In this document: positions 18,024 to 24,575 of the stretch, one piece after another
Layout: each line of letters begins with the position of its first letter
Numbering within the stretch: the stretch's first letter is position 1
Virus record (IMG/VR): IMGVR_UViG_3300033571_008792
Span: 1-25,848 of that record
Source of the DNA: a virus
DNA: 25,848 nucleotides
Strand: one strand, 5' to 3'
Translations under genes and position numbers: made by a program
The notes under the pieces: generated by a model
The model's database searches: none
The model's input: the letters and a program-made list of their open reading frames with translations, nothing else
What the model was told of the DNA's origin: nothing

Positions 18024-18761
18024 ATGAAAAACGACACACCAGAACCAGACCAAGACCTCTTCAAATTCATTGAAACGATTCAGCAAGTGAAGCCGCAACC
18101 ACAGCGGAGCGAGTTTGCGGAAATGGCTTTTGAGCATCTTTCAAAGCTTTCCGGCGAGGAACTCATTGACGAAATCAACGCAATTAGAAAGCGCATTCAC
18201 GATTGCAGCCCATTCAAGCAAGAGCCGGTTGACCTTGTTTTGTGGGTAAAGTCGGGAGCAGTAAGGGCAAACGACTACAACCCAAATAATGTCGCGCCTC
18301 CAGAAATGGAACTGCTTAGGCTTTCAATCGCGGAGGATGGATACACGCAGCCAATCGTCACGTTTGATTGCGTGGACACAAGAGAGGTGATCGACGGATT
18401 TCACCGGCATCGAGTCGGCAAGGAGTGCCCGGAGATTCAAACTAGGATTCACGGCTATCTCCCGGTCGTCACGATCAACGAGTCTAGACAAGACAAGGGC
18501 GACCGTATCGCTTCAACTATTCGCCACAACCGCGCACGAGGAAAGCACAAGGTCGATTCAATGTCCGACATCGTGGTTGAGCTTCGCCGCAGGAACTGGA
18601 GCGATGAGAAGATTGCCAAGCACCTTGGCATGGACCCTGACGAAGTTTTGCGCCTTACTCAAATCTCCGGTCTGTCCGAGCTTTTTGCGGATCAGGAGTT
18701 TTCCAAGTCGTGGGAGATTGGCGAGATGGAATCCGATCTTGAGGAGGTGGAACTAGCATGA
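18024..18761 (+). CDS. ParB/sulfiredoxin-like protein (IbrB type)
   Basis: This 245-residue protein has a ParB/Srx nucleotide-binding domain: NDYNPNNVAPPEMELLRLSI, then GYTQP (106-110) and the hallmark DGFHR (124-128). It continues with STIRHNRARGKHKVDSMSD and a helix-turn-helix (about 181-215, NWSDEKIAKHLGMDPDEVLR). This matches IbrB-type ParB proteins, which occur with PAPS-reductase-like IbrA proteins. In ParB relatives the domain binds CTP or ATP; whether this one cleaves DNA is unknown. The N-terminal 70 residues are charged and helical. Two genes downstream lies the IbrA-like partner. It is not a plasmid partition protein, as no ParA is present. Confidence 0.82.
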   Translation: MKNDTPEPDQDLFKFIETIQQVKPQPQRSEFAEMAFEHLSKLSGEELIDEINAIRKRIHDCSPFKQEPVDLVLWVKSGAVRANDYNPNNVAPPEMELLRLSIAEDGYTQPIVTFDCVDTREVIDGFHRHRVGKECPEIQTRIHGYLPVVTINESRQDKGDRIASTIRHNRARGKHKVDSMSDIVVELRRRNWSDEKIAKHLGMDPDEVLRLTQISGLSELFADQEFSKSWEIGEMESDLEEVELA

Positions 18762-19180
18762 ACCGCATTTACCATACGTGGGACAAGTGGGAGTGCTATC
18801 CAGCTGGATTCTACAACACGCAGGCACCCAAGGGGCTTTCGTCCGACGAATGCTTAGAAATGTATCGGGCATTTTTGGCTGACATTCCGCGATTCCAAGC
18901 CGCTATGGTCCGGGTGGTTTCCGAGTGGAAAAACTCCTGCGAGCATTACCTATCTAACGAGTGTATGAACCGCATCGCATGGCTTGGCCAATCGGCAATG
19001 TGCATTGAAACGGGAATCCCCGCCCAATTTCGCGGAGGCTACAACCTTTTGACGGAAGATCAAAAAAAGAAAGCCGATGAAGCAGCGCTGGCCGTGTTGA
19101 ATCTCTGGATGAAAAACAACGGGGAGCAGGAATTGAACTTTGAATCCGCGCAATCTAAAACCCAAGCAAACCTTTACTGA
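18758..19180 (+). CDS. Conserved protein of the IbrB/IbrA cassette, unknown
   Basis: This 140-residue protein has a striking aromatic and Cys-rich motif set: YHTWDKWECYPAGFYNT at the start, then SSDECLEMYRAFL, EWKNSCEHYLSNECMNRIA and WLGQSAMCIE. The strict spacing of W, C, Y and H suggests a metal site or an enzyme. I recall similar small proteins beside ParB-like and PAPS-reductase-like genes in other phages and genomes, but no function is established. It has a strong AGGAGGT before its ATG, overlaps the ParB-like gene by ATGA and the reductase-like gene by TGATG, so all three are made together. Confidence 0.75.
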   Translation: MNRIYHTWDKWECYPAGFYNTQAPKGLSSDECLEMYRAFLADIPRFQAAMVRVVSEWKNSCEHYLSNECMNRIAWLGQSAMCIETGIPAQFRGGYNLLTEDQKKKADEAALAVLNLWMKNNGEQELNFESAQSKTQANLY

Positions 19181-20397
19181 TGAGTCTGAAGCAATACAGA
19201 GAAAAGAACGTGCTAGAAGCTGCACGCGAGCGTGTCGCCATTGCGTTTGATAGATTCGAGAAAATCTACGTCAGTTTTTCGGGCGGCAAGGATTCGTCTG
19301 TGATGATGCACCTTGTTCTTGCCGAAGCCATCAAGCGCAACCGCAAGGTTGGCGTTTTGGTGATCGACCTTGAAGCGCAATATAAATCGACCATTGAGCA
19401 TATCAGGGAAATGGTTGAGCATTACCGCGAGTCAATCGACCTTTATTGGGTTTGCCTCCCGATGGCTCTCCGCAACGCTGTGAGCAACTACGAGCCGAAA
19501 TGGTGTTGCTGGGAAGAGAGGGCAAAGGATTCATGGGTTAGGCAGTTTCCGCAAGTTGCTGGCGTCATCACCGATTACGACTACTTTGATTTCTTTGTTC
19601 CAGGCATGGAGTTTGAAGAGTTCATGGTTCTATTTGGACTTTGGTTTGGCGGCGGCGATCCGGCTTGCGGGTTTGTTGGAATCAGGGCCGACGAGTCTTT
19701 GAATCGGTTCCGCACGATTGCCTCGTCAACCAAGGAATGTTTGGACGGAATGAAGTGGACCACGTTGGTCGAGCCAGGGCTTTACAACGCCTACCCGATT
19801 TACGATTGGCGCACAGAAGACATTTGGAGATTCCACGGAGCGAATCCCGCCCTAATGCACAATTCGGTTTACGACATGATGCACAAGGCGGGTCTTTCAA
19901 TCCACCAGATGCGCCTTTGCCAGCCATACGGGGACGACCAGAAGAAGGGTTTGTGGCTCTACCACATCCTTGAGCCGGAAACGTGGGCAAAGATTGTGGC
20001 GCGTGTCAATGGTGCTAACTCTGGCGCTCTTTACGTGTCAGAAACCGGCAACATTTCAGGCAGCATCAAGATCACAAAGCCCGCTGGCCATTCGTGGAAA
20101 TCGTTCTGCGACCTGCTGCTTTCCGGTCTCCCAAAGCGGACGCAAGAGCATTACCTTTCCCGGTTTAGAGGATTCATTAAAGGGTGGAAAGGAAGAGGAT
20201 ATACTGAAGGCATCCCAGATGAAGCGCCTGCCATTTTGGAGGCAAAGCATTGGGCTCCGTCTTACCGCCGACTTTGCAAAGTTTTGCTTCGGAATGATTG
20301 GTATTGCAAAGGGCTTGGACTCACTCAGCCAAAGTCCGAATCCTACGGGAAATATCTGGAAATCAAGAAAGCCAAAAAGGAGGCAGCAAGCGCATGA
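19180..20397 (+). CDS. PAPS-reductase-like ATP pyrophosphatase with DUF3440 (IbrA type)
   Basis: This 405-residue protein has an N-type ATP pyrophosphatase loop SFSGGKDSS (S34-S40), then GIRADES (167-173) and YPIYDWRTEDIW (205-216), as in PAPS reductases and DndC. The C-terminal half (about 220-390, with HSWKSFCDLLLSGLPKR and WAPSYRRLCKVLLRNDW) fits DUF3440 of IbrA proteins. The C-terminal ECGLH reductase motif of true CysH is missing, so assimilatory sulfate reduction is unlikely; adenylation or sulfur transfer to DNA, RNA or protein fits better. Cys109-110 and C247 are candidate catalytic or metal residues. It overlaps its upstream partner by TGATG and the following nuclease by ATGA. Confidence 0.85.
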   Translation: MSLKQYREKNVLEAARERVAIAFDRFEKIYVSFSGGKDSSVMMHLVLAEAIKRNRKVGVLVIDLEAQYKSTIEHIREMVEHYRESIDLYWVCLPMALRNAVSNYEPKWCCWEERAKDSWVRQFPQVAGVITDYDYFDFFVPGMEFEEFMVLFGLWFGGGDPACGFVGIRADESLNRFRTIASSTKECLDGMKWTTLVEPGLYNAYPIYDWRTEDIWRFHGANPALMHNSVYDMMHKAGLSIHQMRLCQPYGDDQKKGLWLYHILEPETWAKIVARVNGANSGALYVSETGNISGSIKITKPAGHSWKSFCDLLLSGLPKRTQEHYLSRFRGFIKGWKGRGYTEGIPDEAPAILEAKHWAPSYRRLCKVLLRNDWYCKGLGLTQPKSESYGKYLEIKKAKKEAASA

Positions 20398-21692: not shown

Positions 21693-21761
21693 AGCCTCCA
21701 AATCCCTCGCCAGCCGGTTGCATCACCGGGTCTCAACTGGCGGTGGGTTTGGGGGCTTTTT
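21693..21761 (+). terminator. Long hairpin terminator/attenuator before replication genes
   Basis: Arms 21693-21713 and 21737-21757 pair over 21 positions as RNA with one mismatch and three G-U pairs, followed by TTTT directly after the stem (five T counting the last stem base). The loop contains an inner 5-bp helix CCGGT/ACCGG. It lies 19 bases before the initiator gene, so read-through control would set expression of the replication block. Confidence 0.82.
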
Positions 21762-21780: not shown

Positions 21781-22470
21781 ATGAGGATTAGAACCATCAA
21801 ACCAGAGTTTTTTACACATGAAGCTCTATTCGACGCGGAAATGGAATTTAAGCTACCGCTGCGAATTGCGTTCGTCGGCTTGTGGTGCGCCGCCGATAGG
21901 GAAGGACGGTTTCGATGGGAACCTCGCCGCCTTGGGATTCAGATCATGCCATATGATAAGATGGACTTTTCACGCGTGCTTGACGCGTTAGTAACGCGTG
22001 GATTCATCCGTCAATATCGCGTCAATGACGCGGTTTTTGGGTGCATCCCGTCGTTCTCGCGTCATCAAGTGATTAACAACCGCGAGCGGGAAAGCGATTT
22101 GCCGGAACCTCTGGATTTCAACGACATCGACGCGTGCCCCACGCGTGCCCCACGCGTTGACGACGCGGGGAAAGCGGAAGGGAAGGGAAGGGAAGGGAAA
22201 GGAAAGGAACAGAAGGGAAGGGGAACACGCGACGAGCTACGCTCATACGCGGTCGAAATTTCCCTTCCTGACTCAGACGGTGATTTCTTTTTCGATCACA
22301 TGGAGGAAGGCGGATGGACACGCAGCGGTCAACCAATCAAAGATTGGAGGGCGGCTATGAGGAAATGGAAAGCGGCGGGATGGCTTCCTAGCCAAAAAGC
22401 ATCCCAGACCAAACACGCCGCTTACGCCAACGGCTACAACGAACAAATTCCACTTCCGCCAGCACTATGA
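21781..22470 (+). CDS. Replication initiator / replisome organiser
   Basis: This 229-residue protein probably binds the origin and recruits the helicase loader. The N-terminal winged-helix region has the family pattern RTIKPEFFTHEALFD, FVGLWCAADREGRF, IMPYDKMDFSRVLDALVTRG and FSRHQVINNRERESDLPEP. A linker of about residues 128-150 is low-complexity Gly/Lys/Glu/Arg. The C-terminal part (about 165-229, FFFDHMEEGGW, then IKDWRAAMRKWKAAGW) resembles the end domain of phage replication proteins. The gene contains the ACGCGT array and polypurine tract described separately, so it may carry the origin. It follows the attenuator-like hairpin and overlaps the DnaC-like gene by ATGA. Confidence 0.82.
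   Translation: MRIRTIKPEFFTHEALFDAEMEFKLPLRIAFVGLWCAADREGRFRWEPRRLGIQIMPYDKMDFSRVLDALVTRGFIRQYRVNDAVFGCIPSFSRHQVINNRERESDLPEPLDFNDIDACPTRAPRVDDAGKAEGKGREGKGKEQKGRGTRDELRSYAVEISLPDSDGDFFFDHMEEGGWTRSGQPIKDWRAAMRKWKAAGWLPSQKASQTKHAAYANGYNEQIPLPPAL
21972..22168. repeat. Iteron-like ACGCGT arrays, candidate replication origin
   Basis: ACGCGT occurs six times within the initiator gene in two clusters: 21972, 21983, 21994 and 22130, 22141, 22152, always exactly 11 bases apart. A near copy ACGCGG follows at 22163, again 11 bases on, and TCGCGT/ACGCGG at 22017/22028 are also 11 apart. Because 11 is not a multiple of three, the copies fall in different codon phases, so the pattern is selected in DNA, not protein. 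About one helical turn of spacing suits binding sites for an origin-recognition protein. Confidence 0.68.
22176..22225. repeat. Polypurine tract next to the ACGCGT array
   Basis: Positions 22176-22225 are all purines on the plus strand except one C at 22210, built of GGGAA- and GGAAA-like units. It encodes the charged linker of the initiator. Next to the iteron-like array it could act as an easily opened or triplex-forming element, as the A-rich asymmetric segment does in the lambda origin; it may also be mere linker coding sequence. Confidence 0.55.
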
Positions 22471-23156
22471 ACAGCCTCGACAAATTCATCAACAGCCTCG
22501 ACGAACTGATCGAGAAGGCGCCAGATTCTCGAGAACCCGAACAAACAACCCATCAGCTTGAAGCAAGAAAGCCAGAGCCTCAAGTAGCGCTTGAGGGATG
22601 GGAACAGCGGTGGAGAAAAGCGGAATCTCAGCCAACAGGCGACCAGTGGCTTGATGCATTCGACAAGGCCAAGCGCGTGATCGAGCGAGGAAGCATCCTG
22701 ATTCTCCACGGGACGCGAGGCGCGGGGAAAACCCGGATGGCATACGAGGCCGCAATTTCTGCCGCTTTGCCAAAGGACAAATCCGGACATTTCGACGGCA
22801 TCAGGACACATCGCAAGACCACCGCCAGATACACGACGGCAATGGCGTTCTTCCTCGATGTTCGCGCCACATTCTCCAAGAAAGCCAGCAAGACGGAGCG
22901 CGACATCGTGGAGTCATTGACCGACCCCGCTTTGTTGGTCATCGACGAAATCCAAGAGCGCAGCGAATCCGCATGGGAGAACCGGCTACTCACTCACGTT
23001 CTTGATTCCCGCTACGCATCAATGCGCCCGACCATCATCATTGCCAACCTGACATCCGCCGAGCTGGCCGCTTCGCTTGGACCATCAATCATGGACAGAA
23101 TCCACGAAGGCGGCGGGCACATAGAGTTTACGTGGCCTAGCTACCGCCGCGCATGA
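22467..23156 (+). CDS. DnaC-type helicase loader (AAA+ ATPase)
   Basis: This 229-residue protein should load the host or phage DnaB-type helicase at the origin. It has Walker A GTRGAGKT (82-89), Walker B LLVIDEI (D160, E161), a sensor asparagine in TIIIANLTS (N194) and an IMDRI motif near the end, all typical of DnaC/IstB ATPases. The first 45 residues are a charged, partly disordered helicase-binding arm. It follows the initiator gene by an ATGA overlap and precedes a mini-gene and the DnaA-like gene. No helicase gene lies in the window, so the loader probably uses a host helicase or one encoded outside. Confidence 0.88.
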   Translation: MNSLDKFINSLDELIEKAPDSREPEQTTHQLEARKPEPQVALEGWEQRWRKAESQPTGDQWLDAFDKAKRVIERGSILILHGTRGAGKTRMAYEAAISAALPKDKSGHFDGIRTHRKTTARYTTAMAFFLDVRATFSKKASKTERDIVESLTDPALLVIDEIQERSESAWENRLLTHVLDSRYASMRPTIIIANLTSAELAASLGPSIMDRIHEGGGHIEFTWPSYRRA

Positions 23157-23899: not shown

Positions 23900-24157
23900 A
23901 TGATCCAAGAATACCAACCCGAGCAGTGGACGGTCCTTAAAGATCACATCTACGCCGCCCGTGAGGCCATCCGAAACGGCATCGAATACACGCAGGAGCT
24001 TCTAGCCAACCGCGACGTTGAGCTTGGCCGCGACCACCGTTCCAACCGCAAAACATCGGAACGGATTGAGCGTGAAATCGAACAGATGAAGATCGCGCTG
24101 GCCAACCTTGATCGCCCCCTTCCTCCCGCCCCTGACCATCACCAAACAACCGACTGA
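23900..24157 (+). CDS. Small helical phage protein, unknown
   Basis: This 85-residue protein is mostly alpha-helical and charged (REAIRNGIEYTQELLANRD, then RIEREIEQMKIALANLD), ending in a Pro/His-rich tail. It is not recognised. The ACCATGATC start follows no Shine-Dalgarno sequence, and the SSB-like gene begins one base after its stop. A DNA-replication accessory role is possible from location only. Confidence 0.7.
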   Translation: MIQEYQPEQWTVLKDHIYAAREAIRNGIEYTQELLANRDVELGRDHRSNRKTSERIEREIEQMKIALANLDRPLPPAPDHHQTTD

Positions 24158-24158
24158 A

Positions 24159-24575
24159 ATGATCCGACTGAAACTAAACCTCCGCAAACTCACCGATTTC
24201 CGCACCTTCACCGGCAAGGACGGAGTCGAATACGCCGCGTTCCCGATCAAGGCGAACGCGATCTACATGACCGACAAAACCGCCAGCATGGACGTCACGC
24301 TGGTAAGCAATCGGGACGGCAAGGACCAATACGACAATGATGGATTTGCCACGCTCGACCTCGGAAAGGAGCGCCGATTGGCTGGCGAACGCGGGCCGAT
24401 CCTTGGCAACTGGAAAGACCTGGACGCCGCGATTGGCCGCGACATCGCCGCCAAGGACGCGACCTACCGGGGAAACAAGAGCGCGCCTCAGCAACGCGAC
24501 AACAGCGCGGCGGATGGACCGGATGATTCCGACGAGATCCCTTTCAATCAGCGCCACGCCGGACTGCCCGTTTAA
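24159..24575 (+). CDS. Probable single-stranded DNA-binding protein
   Basis: This 138-residue protein has a beta-rich core (IRLKLNLRKLTDFRTFTGKDG, YAAFPIKANAIYM) followed by DQYDNDGFATLDLGKERRLAG and RGPILGNWK (79-86). That middle pattern is one I know from phage proteins usually annotated as hypothetical or SSB-like. The C-terminal part is acidic and disordered and contains DSDEIPF (123-129), like the DDIPF tip of bacterial SSB that binds partners, but nine further residues follow. The ATG at 24159 is chosen because it directly follows the previous stop; the frame is open to 24108. It would protect single strands during replication and ERF recombination. Confidence 0.68.
   Translation: MIRLKLNLRKLTDFRTFTGKDGVEYAAFPIKANAIYMTDKTASMDVTLVSNRDGKDQYDNDGFATLDLGKERRLAGERGPILGNWKDLDAAIGRDIAAKDATYRGNKSAPQQRDNSAADGPDDSDEIPFNQRHAGLPV

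Follow-up and report, generated by a model that had tools for sequence, protein, structure and literature searches.

What purpose do evenly spaced repeats of one palindromic hexamer serve inside the coding sequence of a phage replication initiator? The question is raised by a viral sequence of 25,848 nucleotides (IMG/VR record IMGVR_UViG_3300033571_008792, positions 1 to 25,848), analysed here at its full length and referred to as the window. A preliminary description had placed six ACGCGT and one ACGCGG (22163) on an 11-bp grid inside an initiator gene, with a polypurine tract after them, and both the tract and every position on the grid were confirmed. Array 1 (21972..21999, + strand) consists of three ACGCGT in 11-bp steps, at 21972, 21983 and 21994, and falls in codons 64-73, within those for the DNA-binding domain. 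Array 2 (22130..22168, + strand) consists of ACGCGT at 22130, 22141 and 22152 and ACGCGG at 22163, also in 11-bp steps, and is encoded in linker codons. The tract, a (GGGAA)n run with one C at 22210, occupies 22176..22225 on the + (coding) strand, 3' of array 2; it is purine-only over 22176-22209, resumes over 22211-22225 and is a putative strand-opening or R-loop element. Judging from the sequence, the arrays very probably form an iteron origin that is embedded in the initiator gene and read by its own winged-helix initiator. We infer the identity of the binder, the place of strand opening and the start of replication at this site, and the steps of protein binding, opening and helicase loading are proposed by analogy with the protein families named below.

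The gene that carries the arrays (21781..22470, + strand, 229 aa) is assigned as a replication initiator from a phrog_16167 match and an AlphaFold model. Residues 1-113 match phrog_16167, 'replication initiation protein', at E 2.7e-40, and the C-terminal part lies outside the match; against Pfam, the protein matched no family at E<=0.1. Its end is overlapped by 4 bases by the start of the gene directly downstream (22467..23156, + strand), which encodes a DnaC-like helicase loader (phrog_50, E 1.2e-35; Pfam IstB_IS21, E 1.6e-7), as in lambda-type origins. The product previously described as 'DnaA-like' is in fact this loader. The gene after the initiator is annotated as a helicase loader or helicase in four of nine annotated relatives and carries no such annotation in four others; in the ninth, two genes intervene before a DnaB helicase. 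None of the 21 loci found as loader relatives (L087-L107) carries a member of the phrog_16167-type initiator family. Elsewhere in the window, Rfam and tRNA searches found nothing, and the region 18024-20397 contains a weak ParB_N match, below the Pfam cut-off, one gene from a PAPS-reductase/DUF3440 gene. The gene at 24108-24575 has no Pfam match; its product carries an acidic DDSDEIPF stretch near the end and, judged by eye, looks like a single-stranded-DNA-binding protein.

The window is most likely the beginning of a 40,865-base contig, that of relative L006 (IMGVR_UViG_3300032288_002266), because the coordinates agree and no base differs in the part compared, which runs from 19,281 to the window's end. 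The rarity of the hexamer, one of the original arguments, carries little weight: the window contains six ACGCGT, against 7.8 +/- 2.8 in shuffles, so over-representation was rejected as an argument and it is the placing of the copies that is unusual. Across the 40,865-base contig, ACGCGT occurs nowhere but at the six array positions. Outside the arrays there is none in 40,645 bases, counted over the window plus the rest of the L006 record, where 7.7 would be expected under a maximum-order Markov model or 11.6 from base composition. Of the 64 palindromic hexamers, 18, ACGCGT included, are absent from these 40,645 bases (contig G004), which suggests restriction avoidance, and a general avoidance of palindromes may explain why ACGCGT is missing outside the arrays. 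When all hexamers were considered at spacings of 7-30 bp, the 40,865 bases held three exact, equally spaced triples, namely both arrays and one at 30 bp elsewhere. The cumulative GC skew, which had been proposed as a check, does have a local maximum near 23 kb, with minima near 15 and 29 kb, but is not decisive for the origin site, and the skew does not mark the site of the arrays.

The pattern is widely kept in relatives. From a protein search of viral contigs, the best 80 of 236 relatives were taken, and 33 remained after 47 of the 80 had been dropped as near-duplicates, those kept having less than 93% nucleotide identity over 140 codons. Three phased ACGCG are present at array 1 in 31 of these 33 dissimilar relatives (the exceptions are L046 and L054), at least three at array 2 in 32 (the exception is L080), and both arrays are phased in 30, with varying spacer letters between the phased copies. 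Two outcomes had been named as damaging to a lambda-like origin in the initiator gene, an equal density of ACGCGT elsewhere and a loss of the spacing in close relatives. Both turned out the other way, with no copy outside the arrays in the 40,865-base contig and close relatives retaining the 11-bp spacing despite changes in the spacer codons; together with the phrog_16167 initiator and the DnaC-like loader next to it, this supports the proposal. No ACGCG array was found in L420, L526 or four rows of genome G1079, though they belong to the same clade of a tree that was built from few columns and whose bootstrap had not settled. Positions 0-3 of the sequence logo are circular, the units having been collected by those letters. 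The distance from array 1 to array 2 is 158, 159, 167, 169, 170 or 182 bp (32 rows), and a fixed helical phase between them was rejected on these values; a rigid joint complex of the two arrays is not favoured, because the distances are out of constant helical phase. A DnaA-box-like word at 21810 was also rejected, being present there in only one of the 33 rows, the window's own contig L006.

The peptides encoded by the arrays, SRVLDALxTRGF and DAxxTRxxRV, are conserved, which is what constraint on the protein would produce, and such constraint, or else chance, is an explanation to which we give practically no credence. Among the 33 relatives there are 79 conserved degenerate codon columns, of which 17 show just one codon in every row that has the majority residue, and all 17 lie within codons 63-73, 117-125 or 133-143. 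They are codons 64, 68, 69, 72 and 73 in array 1, with codon 63 directly beside it, codons 117, 118, 121, 122 and 125 in array 2, and codons 133-136, 138 and 143 in the GGGAA tract. Since single-codon columns are confined to the arrays, codon 63 and the tract, the constraint acts on the DNA. In 20,000 synonymous-codon shuffles of the initiator gene, one exact triple array appeared in 63 and both arrays in none. With these results, and with an excess of self-similarity at 11 bp above that of synonymous shuffles (see below), protein-level constraint or chance is refuted. The earlier assertion that protein repetition cannot explain the arrays is therefore upheld by the synonymous-codon tests; the reasoning from spacing on which it had been based does not hold, as three 11-bp units make 11 codons.

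The spacing can also be assessed free of any particular letters, by comparing the self-similarity of the linker at lags 5-26 with that of synonymous shuffles of the same gene, with purine or pyrimidine runs and TGATTCC repeats masked. In the window's clade, p<=0.01 was obtained at lag 11 in 30 of 33 members, at lag 22 in five, at lag 16 in one and at no other lag. Ten enteric relatives, chosen from a set of 80 loci with 68 distinct genes and 34 representatives, gave lag 11 in five, lag 22 in five and lag 18 in one at the same threshold. Among 42 further members, lag 11 was significant in nine (33 individually fell short of p<=0.01), lag 22 in eight and any other lag in at most two. Significance at lag 11 was found in 7 of the 35 of these members that lack ACGCG arrays and in 2 of the 7 that have them, the array-bearing members below it being VvAW1, ct4oC223, L411, L423 and L517. 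Taken together, the 35 members without ACGCG arrays show a mean excess of 5.6 SE at lag 11 and 2.4 SE at lag 22, and of less than 1 SE at the other 19 of 21 lags. Lambda gene O, used as a positive control, was significant at lags 20, 23 and 24, which are its annotated iteron spacings, and not at 11. The lag test excluded L412-L414, which had been reached via pattern hits, and L433, L536, L538 and L540-L542 as duplicate or very weak; 11 loci without a family ORF were also left out, and locus L530, which contains runs of N, was kept unaltered.

Read by eye, the repeated units differ between clades of the phrog_16167-type family. They include a 10-bp unit, GCACGTGCAA, in L434 (significant at lag 10), and 11-bp units that are GCACGGTGCAA-like in L417 (lag 11, p 0.023), ATACCRGTCCR in L429, NNNYTCANNGA before GGAAGGG in L236 and L529 (lag 11 in L529, p 0.053), and ACCAGTNNNGN in L524 (lag 11, p 0.030). 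The step itself may vary by one base pair: L423, which was found by protein family and not by pattern, has ACGCG in steps of 10, 11 and 10, L228 has steps of 11 and 11, and several members of a second ACGCG clade (clade B in the tree) mix 10 and 11 bp. Viral ACGCG triples at 10 bp occur in 19 stretches, 10 of them in family members, and 7 of these 10 also have 11-bp or 21-bp steps. The coexistence of 10- and 11-bp steps indicates that the helical repeat, and not the codons, sets the spacing.

As far as sequences can tell, the letters of the repeats thus change and the spacing of one turn does not, which is what one would expect of initiators that each read their own repeats. This is the main argument for self-recognition over recognition by a host factor, because the letters vary with the initiator lineage and the spacing is kept. 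We regard it as quite unlikely that the locus is an origin whose arrays are read by a host protein instead of the phage initiator. Such a protein would account for the recurrence of the ACGCG core in initiators of phrog_9474, 2447, 2509 and 9327, for which no profile homology to the family was seen, and for its presence in two separated clades of the phrog_16167-type family. It would have to be reconciled, however, with the other clades, where the same spacing carries different letters, with TGCGCA at 11 bp in another initiator family, and with the diversity of the prophage and plasmid hosts.

In the AlphaFold model of the initiator, a winged-helix N-terminal domain (about residues 1-110) is followed by a low-confidence linker and a short C-terminal part; mean pLDDT by ten-residue blocks is 80 for residues 1-10, 95-98 for 11-90, 84-91 for 91-110 and 41-62 for 111-180. 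Array 2 and the tract are encoded in this uncertain linker. Array 1 approximately covers the codons of a helix at residues 63-72 that precedes the wing and would, by the topology of the model, be the recognition helix. In L423 (clade B), ACGCG is present with a different third helix. Structural neighbours in the PDB are winged-helix proteins in general, and a PDB search by sequence gave no meaningful match to the initiator. Three entries described as 'initiator' or 'Rep-DNA complex' (4pql, 4pt7 and 5kbj), which we take to be RepA_N domains, align with the model over 85-86 residues at Z 5.9-6.5, rmsd 3.3-3.5 and 19% identity; Z values near 6 are also reached by unrelated winged helices and show the fold only.

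Downstream of the DNA-binding domain, the protein is modular. The 33 relatives have four types of C-terminal part without blastp similarity to one another (E<=1e-3), and members of different types have N-terminal parts up to 93% identical. Given that the C-terminal types are dissimilar and the N-terminal parts alike, the origin and the DNA-binding domain seem to travel together, with the C-terminal part swapped near the tract. The same observations would fit a recombination joint, in which repeats and tract serve the swapping of C-terminal parts and replication is not involved. We consider this very unlikely, as phasing at 10-11 bp would be superfluous for a homology joint, array 1 is distant from where such a joint would be, and swapping is equally expected if the origin and DNA-binding domain travel together. 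The modular layout, in which the putative origin and the DNA-binding domain are kept and the C-terminal part is swapped, illustrates concretely how an exchange of replication modules may proceed.

The polypurine tract belongs to the conserved pattern. A purine-only run of 14-44 nt (median 28) lies within 110 nt after the array in all 33 relatives. G-quadruplex formation was rejected as its conserved property, the motif being present in only 13 of the 33, and a folded hairpin of the polypurine strand was rejected for want of a stable fold. No AT enrichment was found after the arrays in the 33 relatives, the mean being 0.476 in the 60 nt after array 2 and 0.477 after the tract, compared with 0.47 for genes; over the 60 nt that precede array 2 the mean is slightly higher, at 0.546. 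Some linkers (L235, L436-L515, L230, L232 and L416-L419) contain repeats, TGATTCC or related to it, with a spacing of 7 or 15 bp, which encode the peptide LIPDSLIPDS. In enteric and Pseudomonas/Bordetella relatives, these repeats occupy the place of the window's GGGAA, after 11-bp units of their own, and in the enteric set many of their codons are single-codon columns; they are possibly another opening element.

Among known systems, the evidence best supports a reading of the arrays as a lambda-like origin within the initiator gene. For lambda and the Stx phages, initiator-binding direct repeats are described in the middle of gene O with an opening element adjoining (PMC7466680, PMC5043065). 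The lambda repeats form one cluster accompanied by an A+T-rich region; each is an inverted repeat of 19 bp and is bound by O as a dimer (PMC5043065). Gene P lies next to O in the lambda record (NC_001416). The window resembles this arrangement in having DNA-constrained repeats in the initiator gene, with array 2 between the DNA-binding domain and the C-terminal part, an element 3' of them and a loader gene next. It differs in its units, which are palindromic hexamers one 11-bp turn apart, not inverted repeats of 18-19 bp about two turns apart, and in having two clusters, a polypurine tract and no A+T enrichment after the arrays. The window's initiator matches no O-like PHROG at E<=0.1, and its relatives VvAW1 and JBD44 do (phrog_18020, phrog_345).

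Similar layouts exist beyond lambda. Phage SPP1 has its oriL inside gene 38, the replisome organizer gene, with direct repeats, initiator binding and a helicase loader, and has an AT-rich unwinding element and a second origin elsewhere (PMC6316719). The likeness to oriL is one of layout, direct repeats within an initiator gene; the opening candidate in the window is a polypurine tract, unlike the AT-rich element of SPP1. In the staphylococcal RepA_N plasmid pSK41, PMC5703833 places four Rep boxes centrally in rep, between the N-terminal DNA-binding and C-terminal domains, and reports that the protein can do without the linker encoded by these boxes. Array 2 likewise lies inside the initiator gene in linker codons, whereas the window's initiator has no match to Pfam RepA_N (PF06970) at E<=0.1. 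The iteron plasmids P1, F, RK2 and R6K have repeats of two turns, about 17-22 bp each, located outside rep; those of the window, in contrast, are of one turn and lie inside the gene. Repeats within an O-like gene are mentioned for Pseudomonas phage MD8, with no spacing given in the passage (PMC8508860), and a lambda-like origin with four iterons has been proposed for a Francisella phage (PMC7924643). In PMC4666352, ACGCGT occurs once, in a primer, and is unrelated. Among open-licence papers, to which the literature search was confined, none was seen that describes iterons of one turn within the initiator genes of phages. Lambda, SPP1 and pSK41 are known cases of intragenic iteron origins, and the one-turn, two-cluster variant with a polypurine tract appears to be undescribed.

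In the mechanism that we envisage for an origin of this kind, the N-terminal winged-helix domain of the gene's own product would bind each ACGCGT. As the copies are one helical turn apart, the initiators would align on one face of the DNA, forming a continuous row over the three to four copies of array 2 and over the three of array 1, and the two clusters might be joined by a loop. The row would bend and strain the DNA, and the polypurine tract beside array 2 would open. This opening may be aided by transcription through the gene, which would yield an RNA rich in purines and able to pair stably with the pyrimidine strand. The host replicative helicase would then be placed by the DnaC-like loader together with the C-terminal part of the initiator.

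The arrays could instead be operator or handcuffing sites, through which the initiator represses its own gene or counts copies, with opening elsewhere. We hold this to be unlikely. Array 1 does lie early in the gene, the two separated clusters could loop together, and the operon looks regulated, to judge by the strong hairpin and U-run immediately before the initiator gene. Repressor sites are usually at the promoter, however, and the arrays lie about 190 and about 350 bases inside the gene; the tract after array 2 is as codon-constrained as the arrays, and the layout is that of known intragenic origins. The hairpin itself (21693-21757, -40.8 kcal/mol, z -5.0, then a U-run, directly upstream of the gene) looks like a terminator or an antitermination site gating the replication operon. 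Similar stems before T-runs were seen at the same place in L066, L073 and perhaps L052 among 12 relatives viewed by eye.

Turning to the wider occurrence of such arrays, ACGCG triples at 11 bp are present in at least 119 viral and at least 117 genome stretches, and 80 listed ones of each were examined. No array falls outside a family ORF in 67 of the 80 listed viral loci. The other 13 have arrays elsewhere (L146 has one inside and one outside), and five of the 13 belong to other PHROG initiator or primosomal families: L109 to phrog_2447, L112, L135 and L165 to phrog_9474, and L147 to phrog_9327 and others. Profile comparison with hhalign detected no homology of the family to other ACGCG-bearing initiator families, for which only six sequences each were available. 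When the distant relative ct4oC223 served as the protein query against viral contigs, a single locus was found. Ten phage records were inspected among 77 with a protein match.

Two scans intended as controls brought up further initiators. ACGCG triples at 12 bp, a spacing control, occur in 38 stretches, none in the phrog_16167-type family, and all nine ORFs chosen from them by eye (L354, L357, L360, L361, L364, L365, L367, L368 and L373) are replication initiators of other PHROG families (phrog_2447 or phrog_2509); in several of these 12-bp initiators, the units precede purine tracts of the RREEKRREE type. TGCGCA, the hexamer read backwards and used as a letter control, forms triples at 11 bp in 74 stretches, of which none belongs to the phrog_16167-type family by a narrow profile and one by a broader profile. 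Nine of the 74 are placed in another initiator family by a profile for which five of them served as seeds, and all four ORFs scanned, each among those five seeds, are PHROG initiators. In eight loci of this TGCGCA family (four of them alike), the first array begins about 40 and the second about 320-350 bases into the gene, and a purine run of 24-48 nt follows the second array in five of the eight. L547, L558, L562, L601 and L609 (phrog_2509/9474) have two clusters of TGCGCA at 11 bp, the first close to the beginning of the gene and the second about 280-310 bases after the first, start to start. The two-cluster layout thus recurs in another initiator family. The 10-bp, 12-bp and TGCGCA scans are not clean negative controls, because PHROG initiators turned up in them.

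It is plausible that one-turn intragenic iterons form a broad class. In its full form, the idea is one that we put forward tentatively, rating it slightly short of an even chance: origins with one iteron per helical turn inside winged-helix initiator genes would be a general class of phage origin, on which initiators form a row or filament with one molecule per turn. The letters would be free to change in each lineage (ACGCGT, GCACGTGCAA, GCACGGTGCAA, ATACCRGTCCR, NNNYTCANNGA, ACCAGTNNNGN, TGCGCA), the spacing of 10-12 bp would be fixed by the helix, and a purine-only strand would open in place of AT-rich DNA, possibly via an R-loop. If this were true, part of the DNA encoding a DNA-reading domain would itself be a site that the domain reads.

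For many environmental phages the origin is unknown and the initiator poorly annotated, and a letter-free rule, an excess of self-similarity at 11 and 22 bp over synonymous shuffles in the initiator gene, could help in finding origins in metagenomic phages and phage-plasmids. Two further questions are how winged-helix initiators would be arranged on every helical turn, as opposed to lambda O dimers on 19-bp sites, and whether a polypurine tract could stand in place of an AT-rich unwinding element.

The arrangement extends to cellular genomes and plasmids. Of the 80 listed genome stretches with ACGCG triples at 11 bp, 26 are in family members, with hosts among the Rhizobiales, Burkholderiales and others. 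In three sets of evenly drawn genomes, phrog_16167 matches were found in 19 of 398, 12 of 385 and 10 of 369, most of them distant members without ACGCG arrays. Two plasmid records were inspected among 35 with a match, the circular plasmids of Bradyrhizobium sp. ISRA432 (46.6 kb) and Endozoicomonas gorgoniicola (54 kb), and both have the initiator, both arrays and the tract; in these two records, the initiator adjoins genes such as those for an S24 family peptidase or RecT. The other 54 listed genome stretches are outside the family, 11 of them from a single assembly, Isosphaera sp. PR.3.33, in which a repeat with ACGCGT triples at 11 bp occurs across contigs, outside family members (L258, L260, L263, L266, L275, L280, L295, L302, L308, L309 and L314).
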